Assembly: GCF_000312385.1 (NCBI RefSeq)
Contig: NZ_HE997626.1
Span: 359,206-423,205, forward strand
Length of the DNA stretch: 64,000 nucleotides
Source: Tsukamurella sp. 1534
GTDB lineage: Bacteria; Actinomycetota; Actinomycetes; Mycobacteriales; Mycobacteriaceae
Direction: 5' to 3'
In this document: positions 49,365-60,170 of the stretch, piece by piece
Layout of the letters: the number at the start of each line of letters is the position of its first letter
Position numbering within the stretch: the stretch's first letter is position 1
Notes under the pieces: generated by a model
The model's database searches: none
Told to the model about the DNA's origin: nothing
What the model saw: only the letters and a program-made list of their open reading frames with translations
Program-made: the position numbers and the translations under genes

Positions 49365-50381
49365 TCAGGCGGCGCGCAGGGTCAGCTCCCGGATCAGCCA
49401 CGTCTGGCGCTCGCGCGCGACCTCCGCCGTCGCTGGGCCGTAGTAGTAGGCGATGTAGCGCTCGGCGTTGCGGCGCAGGGCGCGGGTGGGCAGCGTGGCC
49501 AGCTCGGCGGCCGGGGCCAGCCGCATCCCCTCCGGGGTGTGGGCGGCCCAGGCCAGCCAGCGGCGCTGCTCGAACAGCATCCACGTCCACGCGCCGGCCA
49601 GGATGGCCAGCGTCAGGCCGCATTTGACCATGAGCAGGAGCACGGTGACGATCGGGTTCTCGCCGCTCGGCGCGTTCCAGAAGAAGTGCAGGACGAACGC
49701 CAGCGCGACCGCCGCGGCGCCGAGGGCGATCCGGTTCCGGGCCCGCACGTGCGCGCGGGAGAGGAGGATCAGGCCGAGCCCGAACAGGCCGGAGTACACC
49801 CAGTGGGACTGGAACCCGAAGAGCGCCCGCAGGATCGACACGGTGAGGGCGCCGGTCACATCGGACTGCGCGTCGCGCAGCGCGAACGTGACCGCGTACG
49901 AGACGTTCTCGACCACTTGGAATCCGAGACCCGCGAAGGCGCCGAGCGCGAAGCCCTGCAGCGGCCGGCGGATCCGGTCGCGGTAGACCACCAGGAGCAG
50001 GGCGATGCCGACGCCCTTGACGGCCTCCTCGTCCAGCGGGCCGATAAGCGCGGCACCCCAGTGGGTGGCGCCGGGGTCGTCGAGGACGTCGTTGACCGCG
50101 TCCGAGGCGATGCCGTTGATCTCCAGCGCGAGGCCGCACGCGCCCACGGCGCCCCAGGCGAAGGCCAGCGCCCACGCCGCCGGCACGTGCAGGCGCGAGC
50201 GATCGAGGGCCGCGATGATCACGGCGACCAGGGCCGCGGCGACGCCGATGATCGGCACCGCGACCGCCACGGCCCCGCCCGCATCGGCGAACCGGGGCAG
50301 CATGTCGCGGCCCACCACGATCCCGCCGAGCACGACGCCCACCACGAAGACCCACATGCTCACCGTCTTCAGGCGCGCCAT
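49365..50381 (-). CDS. PrsW-family intramembrane metalloprotease
   Basis: A 338-residue polytopic protein with eight or nine helices. PrsW motifs are visible: GPLDEEAVKGVGIALLL (the EE(x)3K motif), GFQVVENVSYAVTFA (E(x)3Y-type second motif) and a late H in LAFVLHFFWNAP. PrsW proteases cleave membrane-bound regulators such as anti-sigma factors. ATG 50381 has AAGGAGG seven bases upstream and is preferred to GTG 50387. It lies 2 bp after the gene for a membrane-anchored protein, possibly its substrate or partner (inference). Confidence 0.87.
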   Translation of the reverse strand: MARLKTVSMWVFVVGVVLGGIVVGRDMLPRFADAGGAVAVAVPIIGVAAALVAVIIAALDRSRLHVPAAWALAFAWGAVGACGLALEINGIASDAVNDVLDDPGATHWGAALIGPLDEEAVKGVGIALLLVVYRDRIRRPLQGFALGAFAGLGFQVVENVSYAVTFALRDAQSDVTGALTVSILRALFGFQSHWVYSGLFGLGLILLSRAHVRARNRIALGAAAVALAFVLHFFWNAPSGENPIVTVLLLMVKCGLTLAILAGAWTWMLFEQRRWLAWAAHTPEGMRLAPAAELATLPTRALRRNAERYIAYYYGPATAEVARERQTWLIRELTLRAA

Positions 50382-50383
50382 CG

Positions 50384-50911
50384 TCACGCCTCCTTCAGCG
50401 ACCGGACCACGGCCGCGACGTCGGCGGGCGGACCGTCGGCGCTGCGCAGCGCGAGGACCGTGACGATGAGGTCGGCGCGCGAGACCACGGCGCAGTCGCC
50501 GGAGCGCCCGCCGCCGGTGGCGGTGCAGGTGCGGCCGGCGAAGGCGTCCCCGCGGAGGTCCCCGGTGAACCGGGCGTCCACTCCCCCGATCTCCAGTTCG
50601 CGCAGGCGGCGCGGCGCGGCGGTGTCGAAGTCCGTGACCCCGGTGGTCAGGCGAAGGGTGAGGGTCCCGCCCGCGGGGTGCGTGAAGCGCACCACGTCGG
50701 CGCGGCCGGTGGGCACCTTCTCCCAGCCCGACGGTGCGCGGAACGTCACCTCGGGCCCGGGCAGGGCGCCGAGGACGAATGCCTGGTCGGAGACGGGGGT
50801 CTTCGGCGTCGGCACGGCGCGCTCCACACCGAACCATCCGGCAGCAAGGCCTCCCACCACGAGAATCGCCCCCGCCGAAACGCCCGCGTCCACTGCACGG
50901 CGTCGGTTCAT
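50384..50911 (-). CDS. membrane-anchored protein of unknown function
   Basis: A 175-residue protein with one N-terminal helix (AGVSAGAILVVGGLAAGWFGV) and an outside domain of about 140 residues. That domain has FRAPSGWEKVPTGRADVVRFTHPAGGTLTLRLTTG and two Cys (RTCTATGGGRSGDCAVV) that may form a disulfide, a layout like secretion-associated or LpqN-type beta domains. ATG 50911; the open frame further upstream is not supported. It overlaps nothing, but the prsW start follows after 2 bp, so they form one operon. Confidence 0.75.
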   Translation of the reverse strand: MNRRRAVDAGVSAGAILVVGGLAAGWFGVERAVPTPKTPVSDQAFVLGALPGPEVTFRAPSGWEKVPTGRADVVRFTHPAGGTLTLRLTTGVTDFDTAAPRRLRELEIGGVDARFTGDLRGDAFAGRTCTATGGGRSGDCAVVSRADLIVTVLALRSADGPPADVAAVVRSLKEA

Positions 50912-50983
50912 ACCCGCTAGCATATGGTGAAGAACAACCTCACAAGCAACTCCCGTTACACGGCCACAAAGGAGCCACGGCAC

Positions 50984-51430
50984 ATGCTCAAGGGATTCAA
51001 GGACTTTCTGCTCAAGGGGAACGTGCTCGACCTGGCGGTTGCCGTGGTCGTCGGAGCCGCGTTCACCGCGATCGTGACCGCGTTCACCGAGCACATCGTG
51101 CAGCCGCTGATCGCGTCGATCGGCGGTGGCAAGGACGTGCAGGGCCTGGCGTGGCAGATCATCGACGGCAACGAGAAGACCATCGTGGACTTCGGCGCCG
51201 TGATCACCGCCGCGATCAACTTCATCCTGGTCGCCGCGGTCGTGTACTTCATCCTGATCATGCCGTACGAGGCGCTCAAGGCCCGTGCGGGCAAGGGCGA
51301 GGCCGCGGAGGACGAGGTGGACGTGCTCGTGGAGATCCGCGACCTGCTCGCCGCGCAGTCCGCGCCGCAGCAGGCGGGCGCCCACGCCGCCCTGCCGCCC
51401 ACCGGCCAGTTCCCCACGCAGAAGCCCTGA
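50984..51430 (+). CDS. mscL: large-conductance mechanosensitive channel MscL
   Basis: A 148-residue channel that opens under membrane tension to release solutes after osmotic downshock. MLKGFKDFLLKGNVLDLAVAVVVGAAFTAIVTAF is the N-terminal amphipathic helix and TM1; GAVITAAINFILVAAVVYFILIMPYE is TM2; EDEVDVLVEIRDLLA is the cytoplasmic bundle. ATG 50984 with AAGGAG nine bases upstream is chosen over an in-frame ATG 20 codons earlier, which would precede the conserved start. It is the counterpart of Rv0985c and is convergent with a porin gene across a strong terminator. Confidence 0.96.
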   Translation: MLKGFKDFLLKGNVLDLAVAVVVGAAFTAIVTAFTEHIVQPLIASIGGGKDVQGLAWQIIDGNEKTIVDFGAVITAAINFILVAAVVYFILIMPYEALKARAGKGEAAEDEVDVLVEIRDLLAAQSAPQQAGAHAALPPTGQFPTQKP

Positions 51431-51444
51431 TCCACTGACGGACG

Positions 51445-51479
51445 AGAAGAGGCGGCCTCCCACGGAGGCCGCCTCTTCT
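51445..51479. terminator. bidirectional terminator between mscL and the porin gene
   Basis: A perfect 16-bp stem (51445-51460 with 51464-51479, arm AGAAGAGGCGGCCTCC) and a CAC loop. The TTCT end gives a short T-rich run toward the plus strand. Confidence 0.85.
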
Positions 51480-51490
51480 GCTGTCGGGAC

Positions 51491-52192
51491 TCAACCCAGG
51501 GAGAACCTGTCGGCCCACACGAAGACGCGGCCCTTCGAATTGCCGACCTTGGCGGTCACTTTCACGAACAGGCGTGCTTGGGCGTAGCCGGCGCAGCCGT
51601 CCACGCCGATCGTCTGATCGTTGAAGGTCAGGGAGCCCGAGGACCCCGTGAAGTCGAAACCGGTGCCCGGATCGGCCCAGTCGGGGGCGACCTCGTCGCC
51701 GGGCTTGGGGACCGTCGCGCGGTCGTAGGTGAGCATCTGGGTTCCGATCGACCCCGCGCTGAGCGAGATCGAGCCACCCGTCGACGTGGTCGTCGTCGGC
51801 CCTGCGGTTTCGCCGCCGGAGAAGCTGGGGCCGTTGATCTCTCCGCCGGCCGTGAGGGTCGCCGCGCCCACGTCGACCTGACATCCGACCGCGTAGCCGG
51901 CCTCGATCGCACCACCGTCGGCGTCCTTACCGTTCACCTTCGCGGTGATGACGCCCGAGACCCACGCGTTGCGCGTGGTGGGCAGTGCGACCATTCCCGG
52001 CGAGAGGCGCACGCTCTGCCGCTTGACGCTGACGGTGATCGATCCGCCCGACCCGATCTGCGCGGTCTGCACCGCGTCGCGGATCGGGATCACGGAGTCC
52101 GCTCCGGCGATGGCGGGCGAGGCGAGGGCGCCCGCCGCCATGACTGCGACTGTGGCGAGGGACAGGGTGGTACGGGTGTAGCTCGACGACAT
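51491..52192 (-). CDS. MspA-family porin, paralogue 1
   Basis: A 233-residue secreted porin of the mycomembrane. The signal peptide (MSSSYTRTTLSLATVAVMAA ... AIAGA) ends near residue 29-32. MspA family marks: VKRQSVRLSPGMVALPTTRNAWVSGVITAKVNG, AGYAVGCQVDVG, SAGSIGTQMLTYDRATVPKPGDEVAPDWADPG, TIGVDGCAGYAQARLFVKVTAK and the C-terminal hydrophobic end FVWADRFSLG. ATG 52192 follows GGAAGGAAAG; an earlier in-frame start is not supported. It forms octameric channels for small hydrophilic solutes by homology. It is closest to the paralogue at 55936-56637. Confidence 0.92.
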   Translation of the reverse strand: MSSSYTRTTLSLATVAVMAAGALASPAIAGADSVIPIRDAVQTAQIGSGGSITVSVKRQSVRLSPGMVALPTTRNAWVSGVITAKVNGKDADGGAIEAGYAVGCQVDVGAATLTAGGEINGPSFSGGETAGPTTTTSTGGSISLSAGSIGTQMLTYDRATVPKPGDEVAPDWADPGTGFDFTGSSGSLTFNDQTIGVDGCAGYAQARLFVKVTAKVGNSKGRVFVWADRFSLG

Positions 52193-52454
52193 GGATGCTT
52201 TCCTTCCAGCGCCGCGCGAGGGGTTTTCACGCGGGGTTGGATAGCAAATTAGCACCCGCCGAGCCCATTACGTCAGCGGAAACGAGGAGTTAACGCAGAA
52301 CTGACAAACGCAACCATTTACACCTCTCACCTGGCGTTTCCCGAACTCCGTAAATGCCCCGAAACGGCTCCCCCTTCATCCTGGATCCCATTCCCCGCGC
52401 CCCATGCGCAGCCTGATCGCGAGCGCCACCCGCCGGAGTCGGCGCCCGGGAACA

Positions 52455-52490
52455 CGGAATCGCCCGCCCCGATCAGGGCGGGCGATTCCG
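52455..52490. terminator. terminator hairpin downstream of the secreted modular protein gene
   Basis: A 15-bp perfect stem (CGGAATCGCCCGCCC at 52455-52469 with 52476-52490) and a 6-nt loop, 18 bp past the stop codon of the gene at 52509-53798. Confidence 0.85.
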
Positions 52491-52508
52491 CTCGCGTGCG
52501 GGCCCCGA

Positions 52509-53798
52509 CTACTCCGCCGACGCCTCCTGCGTGGCCCCGGCGTCATCGGCGCCGCTGTCCTCGTCCGCGGCCTGCTCGGCCCCCGTAGGCTCCGCGGACT
52601 CGGTGGGTCCGGCCGACTCGGGCTCGTTCTTACCGTCGAGAGCGTCCTTGACAACATCCAGGACGTCGCGTCCCTTATCGGAGTCGATGGTGCCGCCGTC
52701 ACCGCCCGTCACGGTCTCGCTCGACGACTCTCCTCGATCGCCCCCGCCGGTCACGGAGACATCCTCTCTTGCGGACGACGCCGGGGCCTTCTCACCGACG
52801 CTCACCCGGGCGCTTGTCGCATCGACAGCGGGCGCGGGTGGCTTCGACTGGCCTTCGTCGCCCTTCGGCAGGGCGGGGATGACGGGGAACGCCGCGTGAA
52901 GCTTCTCGAGGTCGTGCTCGACCACGTCCCGCGGAAGGCTCGACATGTTGTCGGCGAACTGCCCCAGGTAATCCTGCGCTTGCGCCGCCGCCTCGCTGAA
53001 CTTCCCCGTCAGCGCCAGGTTCACTGTGGCGTTGAGCGCGGAGTAGATGTTGGCCTTGATGGGTTTGCCCTCGTCATCGATCTTTCGTGTGTCCACGATG
53101 GTCGCGCCGAGCCCTTGGTTCAGGTTGTACAGCGGGATCGAAGCGACGTCGAGGAGTTCAGTGACAGTGGGGAGCGCGAACGGGTTCGCGGCGGCAGGTG
53201 AGGCGACGGCCAGCGTACCGACGGACTCCGGCGGAAAGAACGCGCGCACGTTGAGGTCGAACAACCCCCCGGGAAGATCCATCACCTGAGTGACGACCTG
53301 GGCCATGTAGCCCTGGATCATGGCTGACGCCGTCGCGAAGTCGCCCTTCAGCGCGACCTTGTTCACGGCATCGCTCACCGCCGTGAAGATATTGGCCTTG
53401 ATCGGAACTTTCGTTGCCGCCTCGTAAGCGGCGTAGTCTCCGCCGAATTTTTCAAACACGGCCTTATTTTCTGCGTCGTCGAATTGATCAAGAGTCAAGA
53501 GCGGCTCATCATTCTCGTCGACTAAAACCTTGCCCGCCTTATCCATCTTGTAACCGGTGACAACGAAGGCAGATGTCCGGATCAGCTCGAAGTTGCTGAA
53601 CGGGAGAGCGAGCACTGCGAGCGGGTCCGGATTGAACGAACCCGCGCCGGGCAGGGCGATGTCACCCGGCGCGCTCGCGGCACTGGCAGCGACAGCGGCG
53701 GGCGCGGTCGAGGTCGTCGCGGCGGAGGCCCCCGCCACCGGCGTTGCGAAGATCGCTGCCGCGGTGAAGGCGGCAGCAAGCGAGGTGGTTCGATTCAT
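52509..53798 (-). CDS. secreted two-module protein of unknown function, porin-associated family member 1
   Basis: A 429-residue exported protein: signal peptide (MNRTTSLAAAFTAAAIFATP ... AGASA) cleaved near residue 27, two related modules, and an acidic Ser/Glu/Ala-rich tail (about 310-429). Module 1 carries VPIKANIFTAVSDAVNKVALKGDFATASAMIQGYMAQV; module 2 carries KPIKANIYSALNATVNLALTGKFSEAAAQAQDYLGQF, so a duplication is clear. I recognise no family. The layout resembles the gene at 54440-55789. GC content is a little lower than its neighbours in module 1. Direct repeats with 11-bp period (TGTTCTCA at 53820 and 53831) lie in its leader. Confidence 0.8.
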   Translation of the reverse strand: MNRTTSLAAAFTAAAIFATPVAGASAATTSTAPAAVAASAASAPGDIALPGAGSFNPDPLAVLALPFSNFELIRTSAFVVTGYKMDKAGKVLVDENDEPLLTLDQFDDAENKAVFEKFGGDYAAYEAATKVPIKANIFTAVSDAVNKVALKGDFATASAMIQGYMAQVVTQVMDLPGGLFDLNVRAFFPPESVGTLAVASPAAANPFALPTVTELLDVASIPLYNLNQGLGATIVDTRKIDDEGKPIKANIYSALNATVNLALTGKFSEAAAQAQDYLGQFADNMSSLPRDVVEHDLEKLHAAFPVIPALPKGDEGQSKPPAPAVDATSARVSVGEKAPASSAREDVSVTGGGDRGESSSETVTGGDGGTIDSDKGRDVLDVVKDALDGKNEPESAGPTESAEPTGAEQAADEDSGADDAGATQEASAE

Positions 53799-54388
53799 TT
53801 TTCTTACTTTCCCTCAAAGTGTTCTCAAGCTGTTCTCAGCCTGGCGACAAATTACCACCGAGACCTCGAATTCCTGACACGTAAGGGATCTTTCGGCGAA
53901 CCCCCTCCGACAGCAGAGAAAGAGCCGCCGGGAATGGAAGAATGAATAACACTCGACATCGACATTTGCCGTTGCATTAGCAATTCAATAGGTGGGCCTG
54001 AAACCGACCGTGAAGCGACGAGAAGCGATGGTGGACGCACCCCGCACGAGTGACGCCCGCCCCGGGCGCCGATCGGCCGGCGCGGCCGCCACCGTCGAAC
54101 CTCCCCCGCTCCCGCCCAGGTCACGGCCACCGTCGCCACGCCCCGCCCCGTCGGCGACAGCTCAGGACCGCCGGTCGCACCGCGCCGCCGCGCCCTCCAG
54201 CACGACGTGATCCGGTTCACCGCAGAGAAGTCGAGCTTGTCCCGATACCGGAGCTTTGTACCGAATAGTGCAGGTGCGCAGACCGGCGCATCCCCCGCAG
54301 CGGCCCCCACACCAGGACGAGGAGGTCTCAAGCGGCGGTTGAGACCCACCCGAACCGCACCGCGGCCGCACCGGGTTCGCACACGCCA
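53799..54388. other. non-coding spacer upstream of the secreted modular protein gene
   Basis: About 590 bp without a supported gene. The part near 53860-53995 is relatively AT-rich and should hold the promoter and leader of the minus-strand gene that starts at 53798. Open frames in 53990-54388 have no recognisable start signal or homology. I see no RNA gene. Confidence 0.5.
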
Positions 54389-54423
54389 ACGGCGGTGCGC
54401 CCCACAGGGAGGCACACCGCCGT
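54389..54423. terminator. terminator hairpin downstream of the second secreted modular protein gene
   Basis: ACGGCGGTG (54389-54397) pairs with CACCGCCGT (54415-54423), with an inner CCC/GGG stem. It lies 16 bp past the stop codon at 54440. Confidence 0.75.
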
Positions 54424-54439
54424 CGAGGCAGGGAACGGT

Positions 54440-55789
54440 TCAGTTCGTCGACGAATCCGCCGAGTCCGAGGAGCCCTTCGCGCCGGAATCGGAGGAGGAC
54501 GAGGCCTTCTCCGAGGCCCCCTTCTCCGACGCCCCCTTCGACTCCGCGGAGGGAGTCTCCGCGGGCGCTTCCTTCGACGCGGTCGCGGTCTCGGCCGGGG
54601 CCTGCGTCTCCGTCTCCGGCGCCTTCGTGGCGGTCTCCTTCGGAGCCTCCGTCACGGTCGGTTCGGGAGCGGCCGTGGTAGCGGCGGCCTTGTCCTTCGA
54701 CGGGGCCGTGGTCGGCTCGGCCTTCGCGGTGGACGTGCCCGTGGCCGCGGTCGTCGGGGCCGCGGTGGACGTCGCGGCGGACGTCGGCGTGGAGGGAGCG
54801 GACTTCTTCGAGGTCGTCTCCTCGGTCGACGTCGACGTGGTCGGCGCGGAGACCACCTGTGCCGTCTTGTCCGCATCCGCCGACGTGGCCGCAACCGAAT
54901 CCGTCGAGGTCTCGGTGGGCTTCGGCGTGAGGCTCGTGATGAGCGCATCGATCTTGTCCGAAGCCGACTTCACCTGCGCGCCGGGGAATTCCGTGATCGT
55001 CGTGACCGACTTGGTGATGGCCTCGGTGACCAGAGTGACGGCGTCGCCGAACTTGCCCTGGAAGATCGCCTGGGGCACCGAGGTCAGCAGGCCGTAGAAG
55101 TTCTTGTAGATCGAGAGGCCGGCCTGGCCCGCGGCGTACGCCGTGGCGACGGGGATCCCCGCCACGTCGAGCGCGGCGGTGAAGGGGTTGGGTGCGGGCG
55201 CGGGCTCGGCGGCAGCGGCGGTCGTGGCCGCCTCCTCCTCGGTCGCCGGGCCCTTCCCCGTGAGGATCCAGTTCACCGAGTCCGTGACGGCGGTCTGGAA
55301 CAGGCCCGGCACGGAACCGAACTCACCCTTGAAGATCGCCTGCGGCACGGAGGTGAGCATCGTGTACCAGATGGTGTAGATGCCCTGGCCGGTCTGCAGT
55401 ACCCGGTACACACCCTGCACGGGGAGCCCGGCGAGGTTGAGCACATCGGTCACCGACTGCGGCACGGACGGCAGCTCGACGGCGGCCGTGTCGGCGCTCG
55501 CGGCGGCGGTCGCGGTCGACGCCACCGACTGCACGGCGCTCGTGGCGGCTCCGGCGCCGTCCTGGATCGCCTCGTCGGTGACCACGACGAGGGAGCCGAG
55601 GTCCGAGAGGGCCACCGGGGCGGTGTCCGCGGCGCCGGGCGCCGCGGCGAGGGTGGCGGGGTCGCCCACGGGCGCGGGTGCGGCGGCGGGCGCCGGGGCG
55701 GACGTCTGGGCGATGGCGCCCGCGACGGGGCCTATTGCGACCGCGGCAGCGACGACGAGCGCGGACAGGGACGTGGCCTTGCGATTCAT
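54440..55789 (-). CDS. secreted two-module protein with Ser/Thr/Ala-rich tail, porin-associated family member 2
   Basis: A 449-residue exported protein: signal peptide (MNRKATSLSALVVAAAVAIG ... AGAIA), Ala-rich linker, two homologous modules, then a 190-residue Thr/Ser/Ala/Glu/Lys-rich tail without structure. Module 1 has LAGLPVQGVYRVLQTGQGIY, WYTMLTSVPQAIFKGEFGSV; module 2 has VAGIPVATAYAAGQAGLSIY, FYGLLTSVPQAIFQGKFGDA. No family recognised. The tail is a good substrate for O-mannosylation by the Pmt of this window (inference). ATG 55789 follows GGAG; the longer open frame is not supported. It lies between two porin genes on the same strand. Confidence 0.8.
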   Translation of the reverse strand: MNRKATSLSALVVAAAVAIGPVAGAIAQTSAPAPAAAPAPVGDPATLAAAPGAADTAPVALSDLGSLVVVTDEAIQDGAGAATSAVQSVASTATAAASADTAAVELPSVPQSVTDVLNLAGLPVQGVYRVLQTGQGIYTIWYTMLTSVPQAIFKGEFGSVPGLFQTAVTDSVNWILTGKGPATEEEAATTAAAAEPAPAPNPFTAALDVAGIPVATAYAAGQAGLSIYKNFYGLLTSVPQAIFQGKFGDAVTLVTEAITKSVTTITEFPGAQVKSASDKIDALITSLTPKPTETSTDSVAATSADADKTAQVVSAPTTSTSTEETTSKKSAPSTPTSAATSTAAPTTAATGTSTAKAEPTTAPSKDKAAATTAAPEPTVTEAPKETATKAPETETQAPAETATASKEAPAETPSAESKGASEKGASEKASSSSDSGAKGSSDSADSSTN

Positions 55790-55891
55790 GTCTGCTTCTC
55801 CAGGGGTGCGAAAGGGTGCAGCGCCCATGACCGATCCGCGCAGTCGGTGGCGCCACGCCGACTGCGCTATTGCAAACGTCGAGAGAAAGAA

Positions 55892-55923
55892 CGAGGGCGG
55901 TGTCCGTGTGGACACCGCCCTCG
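55892..55923. terminator. terminator hairpin downstream of porin paralogue 2
   Basis: A 14-bp perfect stem (CGAGGGCGGTGTCC at 55892-55905 with 55910-55923) and a GTGT loop, 12 bp past the porin stop codon. Confidence 0.85.
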
Positions 55924-55935
55924 CGGTTGAAGCTC

Positions 55936-56637
55936 TTAGCCCAGGGTGAAGGGCTTGCTCCACAGGATCGTGGTGCCCTGCGAGTTGCCGACCTTGGTCT
56001 TCACCTTGGCGAAGAAGCGGGCCTGCGCGTAGCCGGCGCAGCCGTCGACACCGATGGTCTGGTCGTTGAAGGTCAGCGAGCCCGAGGAGCCCTTGAACTT
56101 GAACGAGCTGCTGGGATCGGCCCAGTCGGGCGAGACCTCTTCGCCGGCCTCCGGCCAGGTGGCGCGGTCGTAGGTCAGCATCTGCGTACCGATGCTGCCC
56201 GCGGACAGCTTGATCGACGCGCCGGTCGAGGCCTTCACGGACGGCTCGATGGTCGGACCGTTCATGCCGACCGAGGCGCCCGTATCGGCGTTGACGCCGG
56301 CGGTCACCTTCGCCGAGCCCACGTCCACCTGGCAGCCCACGGCGTAGCCGGCCGAGATGGAGCCGCCGTCGGCCTTGCCGCCGTTGACCTTGGCGGAGAC
56401 GACGCCCGAGACCCAGGCGTTGCGGGTGGTGGGCAGGGAGACCATGCCCGGCGAGAGCTTGGCGCTCTGGTTCTTGATCGACACGACGACGGTGCCGTCG
56501 CCCACCTTGTTGGTGGTGGAGTCGCTGGGGAGCGGGATGAACGTATCGGCGTTGGCCGCGCCCGTGGAGAGGGCGCCGCTGAACACCACGCCGGCGGCGG
56601 CCGCGACCGCGGCCGAGCGGAAGGCGAGCTTCTTCAT
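55936..56637 (-). CDS. MspA-family porin, paralogue 2
   Basis: A 233-residue porin with signal peptide MKKLAFRSAAVAAAAGVVFS ... AANADT. Family marks are VSIKNQSAKLSPGMVSLPTTRNAWVSGVVSAKVNG, AGYAVGCQVDVG, SAGSIGTQMLTYDRATWPEAGEEVSPDWADPS, LTFNDQTIGVDGCAGYAQARFFAKVKTKVGNSQG and FTLG at the end. ATG 56637 has AAGGAC upstream. Very close to paralogue 1 across the whole length, so a recent duplication separated by the two modular protein genes. It is 67 bp downstream of the third porin gene. Confidence 0.92.
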   Translation of the reverse strand: MKKLAFRSAAVAAAAGVVFSGALSTGAANADTFIPLPSDSTTNKVGDGTVVVSIKNQSAKLSPGMVSLPTTRNAWVSGVVSAKVNGGKADGGSISAGYAVGCQVDVGSAKVTAGVNADTGASVGMNGPTIEPSVKASTGASIKLSAGSIGTQMLTYDRATWPEAGEEVSPDWADPSSSFKFKGSSGSLTFNDQTIGVDGCAGYAQARFFAKVKTKVGNSQGTTILWSKPFTLG

Positions 56638-56704
56638 GAAAAGTCCTTCGGATGTCGCCGCCCGGTGGAGGGCGGGCAAGAGAGTCAGGTCAGTCGGATC
56701 AGGA

Positions 56705-57364
56705 TCAGCCGAGCGAGAACGGCGCGCCGTACAGGAAGCCCTGGATACGGTTGCTGCCCTTGATCTCGACCCAGGTCACGACACGAGCCTGCGCGTACCC
56801 CGAGCAGTGCTTGATGTCGATGTTCGAGTCCTTGACCGTCACGTTGTACGTGCCGGCCTTGGTGAACTTGATCGAGTCGATCGAGCCGAGCTGGTCCTTG
56901 CGCGCGTAGCCCGACGCACTGTCCGTCGCACCCGGGGTCAGCGGGACCTCGAGCTCGGGCTCCACACCGCCGAGGCTCGCGGACGGACCCTTCGAGTCCA
57001 AGCTTGCACCCGGGCCCGTCACGGAGATGCCGACGCCGATGGGGCCGGGGAACTGGCAGCCCACGACCAGGCCGACGCCCAGCTTGCCCTGGATGTCCTT
57101 GGCGTCCTTGGGCGCCTTGACCTCGACAGAGCCGTTGGAGGTGACCCACGCGGTGCGGGACTGGGCCGTGGCCATCGACGGCTGGATCGCCGAGGAGTTG
57201 CCGTTCGACTTCAGGACGACCGACCAGCCGTCCGGCGCCGGGACCGTCTTCTGACCGCTGGGCAGCGGACCCGCGTTGGCGGTGCCGGCCGTGATCGAGG
57301 CAGCAGCCGCCACCGCGACCGCCACGACGCCGGCGCGACCGGCGACCTTGCTCATCTTGCTCAT
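56705..57364 (-). CDS. MspA-family porin, divergent paralogue 3
   Basis: A 219-residue porin with signal peptide (MSKMSKVAGRAGVVAVAVAA ... TANAG). It keeps the family pattern in weaker form: NSSAIQPSMATAQSRTAWVTSNGSVEVKAP, LGVGLVVGCQFPGPIGVG, KDQLGSIDSIKFTKAGTYNVTVKDSNIDIKHCSGYAQARVVTWVEIKGSN, and the C-terminal LYGAPFSLG. The usual long hairpin with W-A-D is absent, so pore size may differ. ATG 57364 or 57355 can start it. First of the porin series on this strand; a CRP-type site lies about 385 bp upstream. Confidence 0.85.
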   Translation of the reverse strand: MSKMSKVAGRAGVVAVAVAAAASITAGTANAGPLPSGQKTVPAPDGWSVVLKSNGNSSAIQPSMATAQSRTAWVTSNGSVEVKAPKDAKDIQGKLGVGLVVGCQFPGPIGVGISVTGPGASLDSKGPSASLGGVEPELEVPLTPGATDSASGYARKDQLGSIDSIKFTKAGTYNVTVKDSNIDIKHCSGYAQARVVTWVEIKGSNRIQGFLYGAPFSLG

Positions 57365-57875
57365 TCGTTCCCCTCACCAGGAAATTATCTGTGTGTCGCC
57401 TCGGTCTGAGGCGTCGGCGAGCGACTCACCCAGTCGCAACCGCATCCCGAGCCATCTGTTCACAGCCCTGGACCACTTTCGGTTCCCCGCAGGCCTGAGG
57501 CGACCTTCGGTTCCGGGGCAGCATATCCTCAGGTTTCGTAGGCCCGCAACGGTTTCGGTCGATGCAATTCCGTTAGTGTAATTTTCGTTTTAAACATTCG
57601 AAATACATGACAAAGCCCGGGGCCAGCGGTTATTAGGGCACGCTTCCAGGCGTTTCGGCCACTGACCTGCACATAGGTTAGGGGAACCTTCCCCTGAGAA
57701 TTCACTCAGGCAACGCACGCGCGTAACCTTACTGTAAATCAAGAAAGACGTGACGCTCGTCACATGGCACCCTAAGGTGTCCGAGGTCACAGCACATCTT
57801 TGCAGACGCATGTTTTCAGGACGCGTACGGACAACGTAACCGGACCGCGGACCGTCGAACGCACAAACGCAACCT
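57365..57875. other. 511-bp spacer upstream of the porin series
   Basis: No supported gene. It is AT-richer than its surroundings around 57570-57620 and 57720-57750 and should hold the porin promoter. It contains a CRP/GlxR-type site at 57749-57764. Open frames crossing it have no homology that I recognise. Confidence 0.6.
57749..57764. promoter_or_regulatory. CRP/GlxR-type operator upstream of the porin series
   Basis: CGTGACGCTCGTCACA matches TGTGA-N6-TCACA except for the first base and contains the perfect inverted repeat GTGACG-CT-CGTCAC. Confidence 0.6.
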
Positions 57876-58088
57876 TCATCCCCCGTGGTGCGGAGGGCGG
57901 TTCTCCCGGTACCAACGCTCGGTGCGGTCACCGTCGGCGCCGGAAACGCCGGATGCCGCGCCCGGATCGGGCGCGGCATTCGGCAGATCGTCGCTCGTCT
58001 GCGTCGGAAGAACGTCGCCGAAGATCCGCGCGATCTCCCGCGCGGAGTACGTGCGGCGGCCCGGATCGGGCCTATCGGGCTTGGTCAT
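57876..58088 (-). CDS. small conserved protein ending in a PPHHGG motif, 70 aa
   Basis: MTKPDRPDPGRRTYSAREIA then RIFGDVLPTQTSDD, an acidic/Gly stretch, and DRTERWYRENRPPHHGG. The arginine-led IFGDVLP(x)TTSD and the W(x)3N/Q(x)PPHHG ending recur in short uncharacterised proteins of mycolic-acid actinobacteria. ATG 58088 overlaps the 3' end of the moaB2 gene by 17 bp on the same strand, so translation is coupled. The moaB2-pepD-mprBA set thus ends with this gene. Function unknown. Confidence 0.72.
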   Translation of the reverse strand: MTKPDRPDPGRRTYSAREIARIFGDVLPTQTSDDLPNAAPDPGAASGVSGADGDRTERWYRENRPPHHGG

Positions 58089-58704
58089 CCCCGCCCGCGA
58101 TGTGCCGGATCACGTGCGTCGCCAGCGGCGACAGCGTGGCCATCCCGTCGCGGATCGCCGCCCGCGAGCTCGCCAGGTTCACCACCACGGTGCTGCCCGA
58201 GACACCCGCCAGGCCGCGGGACAGACCCGCGTCCGGAGCGCCCGCGGCCAGGCCGGAAGCGCGCAACGCCTCGCAGATGCCCGGCAGCTTCTTGTCCAGG
58301 ATCTCCTCGGTGGCCTCCGGCGTCACGTCGCGGGCACCCACGCCCACGCCGCCGATGGTGACCGCCAGATCCACGCCGCCGATCACGGCCGTGTTCAGCG
58401 CGTTGCGCACCGCGACCTCCTCCGCGGGGACCACCACCACGGCGTCCACCTCGAAGTTCGCCTCCTCGAGCAGCTCGGTGACCAGCGTGCCCACCGACTT
58501 CCCCGCCTGCGACGAGACACCAGGCTGCACGTGATCGTCGACCACCACCACGAGCGCGCGCCCCGTCACCGAGGACCCGGCACCGTCGAGCGACGGCTCG
58601 TCCGCGATCGCCGGCGCGTCCAGCACCTCGTCAGTGAGCCAATCGGGCGCCGCAGCGCCCCTGCCCTGCGTCATCTCCACGGACATCTCCACCTCTTCCG
58701 TCAC
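58072..58704 (-). CDS. moaB2: MoaB/Mog-family molybdenum cofactor protein MoaB2
   Basis: A 210-residue molybdopterin-binding-fold protein: GRALVVVVDDHVQPG, SVGTLVTELLEEANFEVDAVVVVPAEEVAVRNAL, LAVTIGGVGVGARDVTPEATEEIL, and a C-terminal SSRAAIRDGMATLSPLATHVI. The TGG(T/V)G(x)(G/S)xRDxTPEAT motif places it with MoaB/MogA, which bind or adenylylate molybdopterin. An extra 40-residue N-terminal stretch is less conserved. Its start overlaps the pepD stop by four bases. Same order as Rv0984 after Rv0983, so it belongs to the mprA regulon operon by position. Confidence 0.92.
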   Translation of the reverse strand: MTEEVEMSVEMTQGRGAAAPDWLTDEVLDAPAIADEPSLDGAGSSVTGRALVVVVDDHVQPGVSSQAGKSVGTLVTELLEEANFEVDAVVVVPAEEVAVRNALNTAVIGGVDLAVTIGGVGVGARDVTPEATEEILDKKLPGICEALRASGLAAGAPDAGLSRGLAGVSGSTVVVNLASSRAAIRDGMATLSPLATHVIRHIAGGDDQAR

Positions 58705-60170
58705 CGGTCCAACCTATCGAGCGTCACCTGCGTGGTCTTCGGAGTCGTGCCGTTCGGCTCCGTGTACGTGACCGTCACCGTAGCCCCGGGCGGGTACGAC
58801 CGCACAGCCCCGATCAATCCGTACCCGTCCGTGACCTTCACGTCGTCGACCTTCGTGACCACCGAGCCGTTCGGGATCCCCGCCTTCGCGAACGCCCCCG
58901 TCGGGGACACCTCCGCCACCACCGCGCCCGGACGGTCCGCCGCCGGCCGCTGTGTACTCACCGAGACGCCGATCGCGGCGTGCGTCGCCTTGCCCGAATC
59001 CATCAGCTCCTTGCTGATCCGCTGCACCTGATTGGCCGGGATCGCGAAGCCCAGGCCGATGCTGCCGCCCTGCTGCCCCGTCGCGATGGACTGGCCGAGC
59101 GTCGCGATCGACGAGTTGATGCCGATCAGCTGACCGCTCATGTTCACCAGCGCGCCGCCCGAGTTGCCGGGGTTGATCGCGGCGTCGGTCTGGATCGAGT
59201 TGATCACCGTGGCCTGATCCGAATCCTTGCCGCTGGTCGCCACCGGACGGTTCAGCGACGAGACGATGCCCGTGGTCACCGTCCCCGCGAGCCCCAGCGG
59301 GGCGCCCACCGCGACCACGTCCTGGCCCACGGCCACCCGTGAGCTGTCCGCGAAGGCCAGCGGCTTGAGGCCGCGCTTCTCGGTCTGGATCACCGCGAGG
59401 TCCGTCACCGGATCGGCCCCGACGACCGCCGCGTTGCTCGTACTGCCGTCGGAGAAGGTCACCGTGAGCCGGCCGTTCCCGGCGACCACGTGGTTGTTCG
59501 TCACGATCCTGCCGTCCGCGGTGATCACCACGCCCGAGCCGGATGCCTCCGAGCGCCCCTGATCGTTGTCGATCGAGACCACCGAGGGCAGCACGTTCTG
59601 CGCCACCTCCTGCACCGACCCCTTCGGCGCGGGCTCCTGCGCACCGTCGCCGTTCGCGACGGAGATCGTCGACGTCTGCCCGTCGCCCCACACCAGGTAC
59701 GCGCCGGTCACCGAGAGCAGCGAGGCCACCAGCGCGATCGCCACGCCCAGGGCGGCCAGCGCGCCGATGCTCGGTCGACGGGGCGCCGACGGTGCCGGCA
59801 TCGTCTGGACCTGCCCCGGCCCACCCGGGTGACCGGGTGCTCCCGGCTGGCCCGGCTGCCCGTACGGCCCCGTCGCGCCCGGTAGGCCGACCTGGCCCGT
59901 CTGGCCCGCCTGCCCCGGCTGGCCCTGATACCCGGGCTGGCCGGGGTAGCCGGACGGGTACTGCATCGCCGCGTAGGGGTTCGAGTACTGCTGGGTGGGC
60001 CGGTACGTCTGCTGCGCGGGCGGGGCGCCCTGCGCCTGCGGGTGGGCGCCCTGCGGGGGCTGCTCCTGGCCCTGGCCCGACGGTGCCCCGCCGGGCTGCG
60101 GCTGGGGCTGCTGATCGGGCGTTCCCGGCTGGTCACCGGGTTGGTAGGGGTGCTGCGGACCCTCGGTCAT
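58701..60170 (-). CDS. pepD: HtrA-family serine protease PepD
   Basis: A 489-residue membrane-anchored protease. A Pro/Gln/Gly-rich cytoplasmic tail of about 130 residues (with GQPG/GYPGQ repeats) precedes one helix (IGALAALGVAIALVASLLSVTGAYLVW). The trypsin-like domain holds the triad: His in IVTNNHVVAGNG, Asp in VTDLAVIQT, Ser in AINPGNSGGALVN. A C-terminal PDZ domain (GVSVSTQRPAADRPGAVVAEVSPTGAFAKAGIPNGSVV) completes it. In M. tuberculosis PepD (Rv0983) processes exported proteins and limits the MprAB/SigE envelope-stress response. Located 70 bp after mprB. Confidence 0.95.
   Translation of the reverse strand: MTEGPQHPYQPGDQPGTPDQQPQPQPGGAPSGQGQEQPPQGAHPQAQGAPPAQQTYRPTQQYSNPYAAMQYPSGYPGQPGYQGQPGQAGQTGQVGLPGATGPYGQPGQPGAPGHPGGPGQVQTMPAPSAPRRPSIGALAALGVAIALVASLLSVTGAYLVWGDGQTSTISVANGDGAQEPAPKGSVQEVAQNVLPSVVSIDNDQGRSEASGSGVVITADGRIVTNNHVVAGNGRLTVTFSDGSTSNAAVVGADPVTDLAVIQTEKRGLKPLAFADSSRVAVGQDVVAVGAPLGLAGTVTTGIVSSLNRPVATSGKDSDQATVINSIQTDAAINPGNSGGALVNMSGQLIGINSSIATLGQSIATGQQGGSIGLGFAIPANQVQRISKELMDSGKATHAAIGVSVSTQRPAADRPGAVVAEVSPTGAFAKAGIPNGSVVTKVDDVKVTDGYGLIGAVRSYPPGATVTVTYTEPNGTTPKTTQVTLDRLDR

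Follow-up and report, generated by a model that had tools for sequence, protein, structure and literature searches.

Among described mycobacterial-type envelope systems, the closest are the porin pairs of the MspA family, represented by MspA, by NfpA/NfpB of Nocardia, by PorA/PorB of Rhodococcus ruber and by TipA of Tsukamurella inchonensis. In R. ruber, the paired porin genes are described as lying one behind another (PMC9233653), and TipA appears among the references of the same paper. By Pfam, three porins encoded in a 64,000-nucleotide window of the Tsukamurella sp. 1534 genome (contig NZ_HE997626.1, positions 359,206 to 423,205) belong to this family. On the minus strand at 51491-57364 of this window, they share one series with two exported-type proteins, here called A and B, for which Pfam, NCBIfam and PHROGs hold no curated family, much as the initial annotation of the stretch had described. 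A and B have no match to the MspA profile PF09203 up to an expectation value (E) of 1, and A is helical, not beta, in a weak structure model. The pair is real, of narrow range and undescribed in the libraries searched, and A and B are probably envelope surface proteins.

Two other groups of envelope proteins offer points of comparison. Like A and B, the PE and PPE proteins of mycobacteria are helical proteins exported to the envelope, and some have long low-complexity stretches; A and B, however, have no match to the Pfam PE or PPE domains up to E 1 and carry a Sec-type start in place of a type VII signal. The way of working proposed below for A and B is similar to that of the corynebacterial proteins PorA, PorH and ProtX. 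PorA and PorH are described as helical and small, and all three proteins as having no identifiable Sec signal (PMC12632848). With 449 and 429 amino acids and a signal-peptide-like start (judged by eye and with a simple script), A and B have neither the small size of PorA and PorH nor the missing Sec signal of all three, and these descriptions set them apart.

Two exported-type proteins with a repeated module

Protein A (449 amino acids, 54440..55789, minus strand) likely starts with MNRKATS at 55789 rather than at the open reading frame start at 55963; protein B (429 amino acids, 52509..53798, minus strand) was delimited by translation, library scans and alignment. Both begin with a basic and then hydrophobic, signal-like N-terminus, and the two starts resemble each other by eye, so that from the look of the sequence both proteins are probably exported. 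No second hydrophobic segment is evident past the signal, where the best 19-residue Kyte-Doolittle mean is 1.25 in A and 1.32 in B. The signal-like start of A is followed by two modules of about 70 to 90 residues, placed by alignment and a repeat test at residues 106-177 (55259..55474, minus strand) and 200-289 (54923..55192, minus strand). These are copies of each other (hhalign E 3e-24), making the repeat first noticed by inspection a true internal one. The two modules of B, placed by alignment and by their match to a profile of A modules at residues 55-189 (53232..53636, minus strand) and 210-305 (52884..53171, minus strand), can be aligned to each other, and each is interrupted by a hydrophilic insertion. 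The four core motifs on which the initial annotation had built its proposal of one family, IFKGEFGSV, IFQGKFGDA, ALKGDFATA and ALTGKFSEA, all occur in the translations as quoted.

Both proteins end in a long disordered-type tail. In A, the tail comprises 160 amino acids (54443..54922, minus strand; recognised from composition and substitution rates), 88% of which are Ser, Thr, Ala, Pro, Lys or Glu, with a Ser-rich end. The tail of B is acidic, as had been proposed (net charge −18), but acidity does not belong to B alone, since the tail of A is weakly acidic too (net −8). Tails of 138 to 197 amino acids are present in all 10 A proteins, with these six residues making up 66% to 88%; 2 of the 10 are nearly devoid of Lys and Glu, and some contain short tandem repeats by eye. 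The ratio of nonsynonymous to synonymous substitution rates (dN/dS), which is rough throughout and rests on unreliable alignments in the tails, is 0.12-0.44 for the modules and 0.33-1.14 for the tails of A genes (12 of 45 pairs), and 0.45 and 0.88, respectively, for the single pair of B genes. The modules are under purifying selection, while the tail roughly keeps its make-up and length and not its sequence, which is the pattern of a disordered spacer.

Neither protein reached a family cut-off in Pfam or NCBIfam, PHROGs gave no match up to E 1, and searches of open-licence PMC papers turned up nothing on an A/B protein family. For the two proteins Pfam gives a single match, in which B module 2 shares an IKAN...GKF pattern with the protein L B1 domain (PF02246, E 0.0021). 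Kinship with protein L was rejected, the match being below the curated cut-off (18.5 versus 25 bits) and confined to one module copy; in a PDB sequence search with the B profile, a protein L chain ranks fourth, at E 0.76. The best PDB sequence matches of two A-type profiles, A3 (E 0.0027, a lysozyme entry, over 20 profile positions) and A4 (E 0.16), were taken as chance.

The kinship of A and B is carried by a profile built from 11 A-type modules and no B module, which scores all four B modules above all 1,000 shuffles of each. Among 578 locus proteins, a set that omits the two-module protein of genome G007 described below, this profile gives B 20.2 bits (E 1.4e-5) and the B orthologue 18.8 bits; the next Tsukamurella locus protein, excluding those fetched as hits, scores 4.9 bits. 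The maximum is 8.6 bits among reversed proteins (n = 511) and 14.6 bits among shuffled proteins (n = 5,110). Recovery of B by an A-only profile above reversed, shuffled and real-protein controls argues that A and B probably form a single family, as the initial annotation had suspected from the shared core; the curated libraries searched do not contain it. Three results weigh against this kinship. Direct hhalign comparison of A with B modules is not significant (E 0.013 and 0.08). In the reverse test with the B profile, between 0 and 56 of 1,000 shuffles equal the scores of 23 single A-type modules. Weak matches of the A profile from 401 genomes, some of them clearly unrelated and a cytosolic-looking oxidoreductase among them, also reach 16.6 bits.

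Range of the module and its link to the porins

Searches place the family almost entirely within one genus. A single A sequence matches 10 of 41 genomes, all of them among the 16 Tsukamurella genomes in the set, and a single B sequence matches 2 of the 41, i.e., 2 of 16 Tsukamurella. At E 0.01, profile A1 finds 12 of 251 genomes of the family, all Tsukamurella; two of these matches are weak and lie outside the porin locus. The B profile matches 2 of 251 genomes. The module profile A3 at E 0.05 extends to 23 of 401 family genomes, made up of 12 Tsukamurella and 11 weak others, and gives nothing outside Tsukamurella at E ≤ 0.001 in these 401 genomes. Across the order, A3 at E 0.001 finds 2 of 298 genomes, both Tsukamurella, and an A profile run over a bacterial genome collection returned six loci, again all Tsukamurella. 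The absence of the A module elsewhere is not absolute, because the A1, A3 and order scans scored no more than the top first-look candidates of each genome (up to 13 or 17). MspA, by comparison, reaches E 1e-20 in 78 of 101 genomes of the family, spread over 25 of 31 genera including Tsukamurella, and is present in 16 of 16 Tsukamurella genomes. The porins therefore do without A almost everywhere.

In the locus itself, the order of transcription on the minus strand is porin 1, porin 2, A, B, porin 3. Porin 1 (219 amino acids, 56705..57364, minus strand; PF09203 E 6.3e-30) opens the series, followed by porin 2 (233 amino acids counted from MKKLAF, 55936..56637, minus strand; E 5.2e-42), and porin 3 (233 amino acids counted from MSSSYT, 51491..52192, minus strand; E 4.8e-37) closes it. 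Their PF09203 scores of 104.8, 144.2 and 128 bits for porins 1, 2 and 3 compare with a curated cut-off of 22.9 bits. The porins had been called near-identical, which is wrong given pairwise identities of 35% (1-2), 61% (2-3) and 32% (1-3). Two more MspA genes occur in the Tsukamurella sp. 1534 genome outside the cluster. A molybdopterin-binding, moaB-like gene (58072..58704, minus strand; Pfam PF00994 E 6e-20) flanks the series upstream and mscL (50924..51430; Pfam PF01741 E 1.3e-35) flanks it downstream, as proposed, but mscL stands outside the same-strand series because it lies on the plus strand. In another genome (G001), a plus-strand open reading frame of 541 codons lies between porin 3 and mscL (L027:2646-4271), its C-terminal part resembling an HNH endonuclease by eye. 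An Rfam search of 50000-59000 at the gathering threshold found no family. The G+C content falls to 0.59-0.63 at 53000-54249, a range that takes in the beginning of B together with the sequence upstream, versus about 0.70 around; on this ground B may be a late arrival.

Within Tsukamurella the linkage of A to porins is complete where A occurs. A lies directly behind porin 2 in all 10 carrier genomes, with a second porin 1-porin 2 pair coming after A in three loci (L024, L026 and L027), and B lies within the same porin series in 2 of 2 genomes. The remaining 6 of 16 Tsukamurella genomes have MspA porins without an A orthologue. Five of these (G007, G008, G009, G011 and G014) have a porin pair with no A behind it, the G007 assembly being fragmented and that of G014 83% complete; the sixth, G003, has four porin genes on four contigs and no porin cluster was seen in it. 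In a kinase tree of 15 genomes, all of the 16 but G003, the sisters G012 and G009 (support 100/99) differ in that G012 has A and G009 lacks it. Because the kinase of G011 is identical to that of G001, a recent loss of A by deletion in G011 was weighed; it was rejected, as the porin regions of the two genomes are only about 79% identical. The G011 region has therefore probably recombined, and no losses were counted. As to co-occurrence with mspA, proposed as a check, A is beside porins in 10 of 10 cases and MspA is far wider than the module. The linkage reflects a local gene order handed down in a single genus, and for that reason the 10 cases are not independent evidence.

A stable hairpin separates porin 2 from A in all 10 loci. 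Folding of the 70 bases that follow porin 2 gives −27.5 to −39.9 kcal/mol in these loci, values obtained without a shuffle control. In Tsukamurella sp. 1534, the terminator scan and folding place a terminator-like hairpin of 15 pairs, followed by a T-rich stretch, at 55891..55924 (minus strand) in the porin 2/A gap. The scan finds 6 terminator-like sites versus a shuffle mean of 4.3, and the porin 2/A stem is by far the longest; the T-rich end was scanned in this hairpin only and the other nine loci were judged by folding. The hairpin suggests that A is probably its own transcription unit, and co-transcription of A with porin 2 was marked down on account of it.

Relatives and possible relatives of the module away from the cluster

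Two Tsukamurella genomes without an A orthologue contain relatives outside the locus. In G007, a divergent two-module protein with a Ser/Thr/Gly tail is encoded on a contig of 8 kb that has no MspA match; its gene adjoins genes resembling, by eye, a 2-oxoacid:ferredoxin oxidoreductase pair, and the contig ends just behind it. In G009, a secreted-type protein of the endonuclease/exonuclease/phosphatase family (Exo_endo_phos by Pfam) carries one module (E 2.9e-6) between its enzyme domain and a Ser/Thr tail, and the MspA genes of this genome are more than 200 kb away. The view of the module as a portable unit and not a porin part relies chiefly on this nuclease, which is one case. An adjoining paralogue has the tail with no module seen (pair at L062:5480-8926), so that the two nucleases form a natural test pair with and without the module.

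Two further proteins were noted. On the same G009 locus, a 535-amino-acid exported-type protein (L062:2238-3845) has Gly/Val/Thr-rich near-repeats, a Ser-rich tail like that of A and no Pfam family. In the Tsukamurella sp. 1534 genome, a nuclease homologue (43%) lies at G000:C1:1211466-1212623, where the match spans one TAG.

In certain histidine phosphatases exported by mycobacteria, of which some have PE and PGRS parts, a C-terminal helical-type stretch aligns with the second half of the A module. The module could be part of a broader Mycobacteriales group of helical elements that stand at the C-terminus of exported enzymes, with a truncated form on the secreted mycobacterial phosphatases, a reading that we hold to be tentative. 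Of the 11 genomes outside Tsukamurella that A3 matched at E ≤ 0.05 among 401, four have the match towards the C-terminal end of a histidine phosphatase-type protein (PF00300 was confirmed by Pfam in two), and all four matches begin at profile position 40. Chance would be unlikely to place 4 of 11 matches at the same position of the same protein type. Histidine phosphatase-type locus proteins score up to 18.9 bits, versus 8.6 for reversed and 14.6 for shuffled proteins; their C-termini align around the core and share the spacing from the core Gly to a later Pro. One exported-type phosphatase-like protein (L145:688-1926, G197) has a half-module-like stretch and then a Ser/Thr/Lys/Ala tail; its parts are arranged as in the Tsukamurella nuclease.

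The phosphatases differ in that the enzyme domain (PF00300) fills much of the protein, and the similarity is at the detection limit: E values of 0.005-0.05 per genome are the chance expectation over 401 genomes, and unrelated-looking matches of the same scan score nearly as high (16.3 bits). In the reverse search of 8 Tsukamurella genomes, an A protein came out on top in one, at E 0.14. A pooled profile with phosphatases in its training set (A8) finds 10 of 201 genomes outside Tsukamurella, of which five at E ≤ 0.001 all show this phosphatase type; the five weaker ones comprise one phosphatase type, two unrelated-looking open reading frames, one unclear match and one not read. Amphipathic helices alone could produce such matches. 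The phosphatase link is kept as a lead. Separately, an exported-type protein resembling a resuscitation-promoting factor by eye (L076:1447-2292, G374) has a C-terminal stretch that matches the module weakly (E 0.003).

Proposed retention at the mycomembrane and competing readings

Our preferred reading is display or anchoring of A and B at the mycomembrane without porin dependence. A and B would be Tsukamurella envelope proteins whose modules retain them in the mycomembrane or wall and whose tail serves as a tether, with the porins independent of them; we give this a probability of roughly 45%. Each module would consist of a short helix, then a break at Leu-Pro, a long helix, a turn at Gly and one more helix; lodged in or on the mycomembrane or wall, it would keep the protein there. 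The tail would act as a flexible tether or surface stalk, and its Ser and Thr residues could carry mannose or mycolate. O-mycoloylation is described on Ser, less often Thr, in flexible Ser/Gly/Ala-type stretches, often at several sites close together (PMC11066868). The A and B genes would travel with the porin cluster through local gene order while the porins would not depend on their products, and the module would be portable, as in G009, where a single copy links the domain of a secreted nuclease with a Ser/Thr tail.

For the structure prediction of the modules, proposed earlier as a check, AlphaFold2 was run on A residues 28-289 with seven sequences, and B was modelled from two. Both A modules show the same three-helix order, a short helix, a 30-residue helix, a turn at the conserved Gly and a helix of at least 20 residues, at low confidence. 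The predicted local distance difference test score (pLDDT) is 58-75 in module 1, and the model as a whole is weak, with a mean pLDDT of 48.8 and a predicted template modelling score (pTM) of 0.34. The B model failed (mean pLDDT 39.1, pTM 0.29) and is unusable, and a Foldseek search of the weak A model against the PDB found nothing below E 0.94. These three results count against the retention reading, as do four others. The evidence in the mycoloylation paper comes from Corynebacterium. All 10 A genes lie between porins, which a porin partner would also explain. Of four nuclease matches over 16 genomes, one covers the module, leaving a single case. Finally, with the B profile, 56 of 1,000 shuffles reach the score of the nuclease module.

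The placement of A and B between porins had led the initial annotation to propose a role in porin assembly or gating. In this reading, A and B would be accessory subunits, gates or assembly helpers of the adjoining MspA porins in the carrier Tsukamurella species. The invariable position of A right behind porin 2, including in the three loci where a second porin pair follows, and of B in the porin series in both of its genomes is what such a partner would show. The wider distribution supports the proposal poorly: MspA occurs in 24 non-Tsukamurella genera where the A profile finds nothing at E 0.001, more than a third of the Tsukamurella genomes have porins without A, the hairpin stands between porin 2 and A wherever A was found, and neither the G007 two-module protein nor the G009 nuclease lies beside MspA genes. 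Published work also argues against an obligatory porin helper, in that MspA, NfpA and NfpB form channels once expressed in E. coli and renatured (PMC9233653) and MspA introduced into ESX-5-deficient mycobacteria is described as having a rescuing effect (PMC4418733). A porin partner is possible, yet it is not what the distribution suggests, and we regard it as unlikely.

A surface adhesin or stalk, with modules that bind something outside the cell and the tail inside the wall, is likewise improbable. A repeated module joined to a long low-complexity tail is an architecture common among surface proteins, the modules of B contain hydrophilic insertions that set it apart from A, and the A/B set varies between species; against this, Pfam and NCBIfam show no adhesin or binding domain in either protein, and the protein L B1 match of B is the sub-threshold, single-copy one rejected above.

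A broader form of the retention reading appears more doubtful still: a portable mycomembrane-retention unit used across Mycobacteriales, in which tandem copies would form wall-to-mycomembrane tethers beside porins and single or half copies would hold secreted enzymes, such as the Tsukamurella nuclease and the Mycobacterium histidine phosphatases, on the outer surface, with mycolate or sugar on the Ser/Thr tail.

If A and B are merely genus-specific surface proteins, their interest is modest. The retention in the mycomembrane of proteins other than beta-barrels is poorly known, and a short conserved module on several exported proteins, together with the pair of nuclease paralogues of which one has it and one lacks it, would allow a retention signal to be tested directly.

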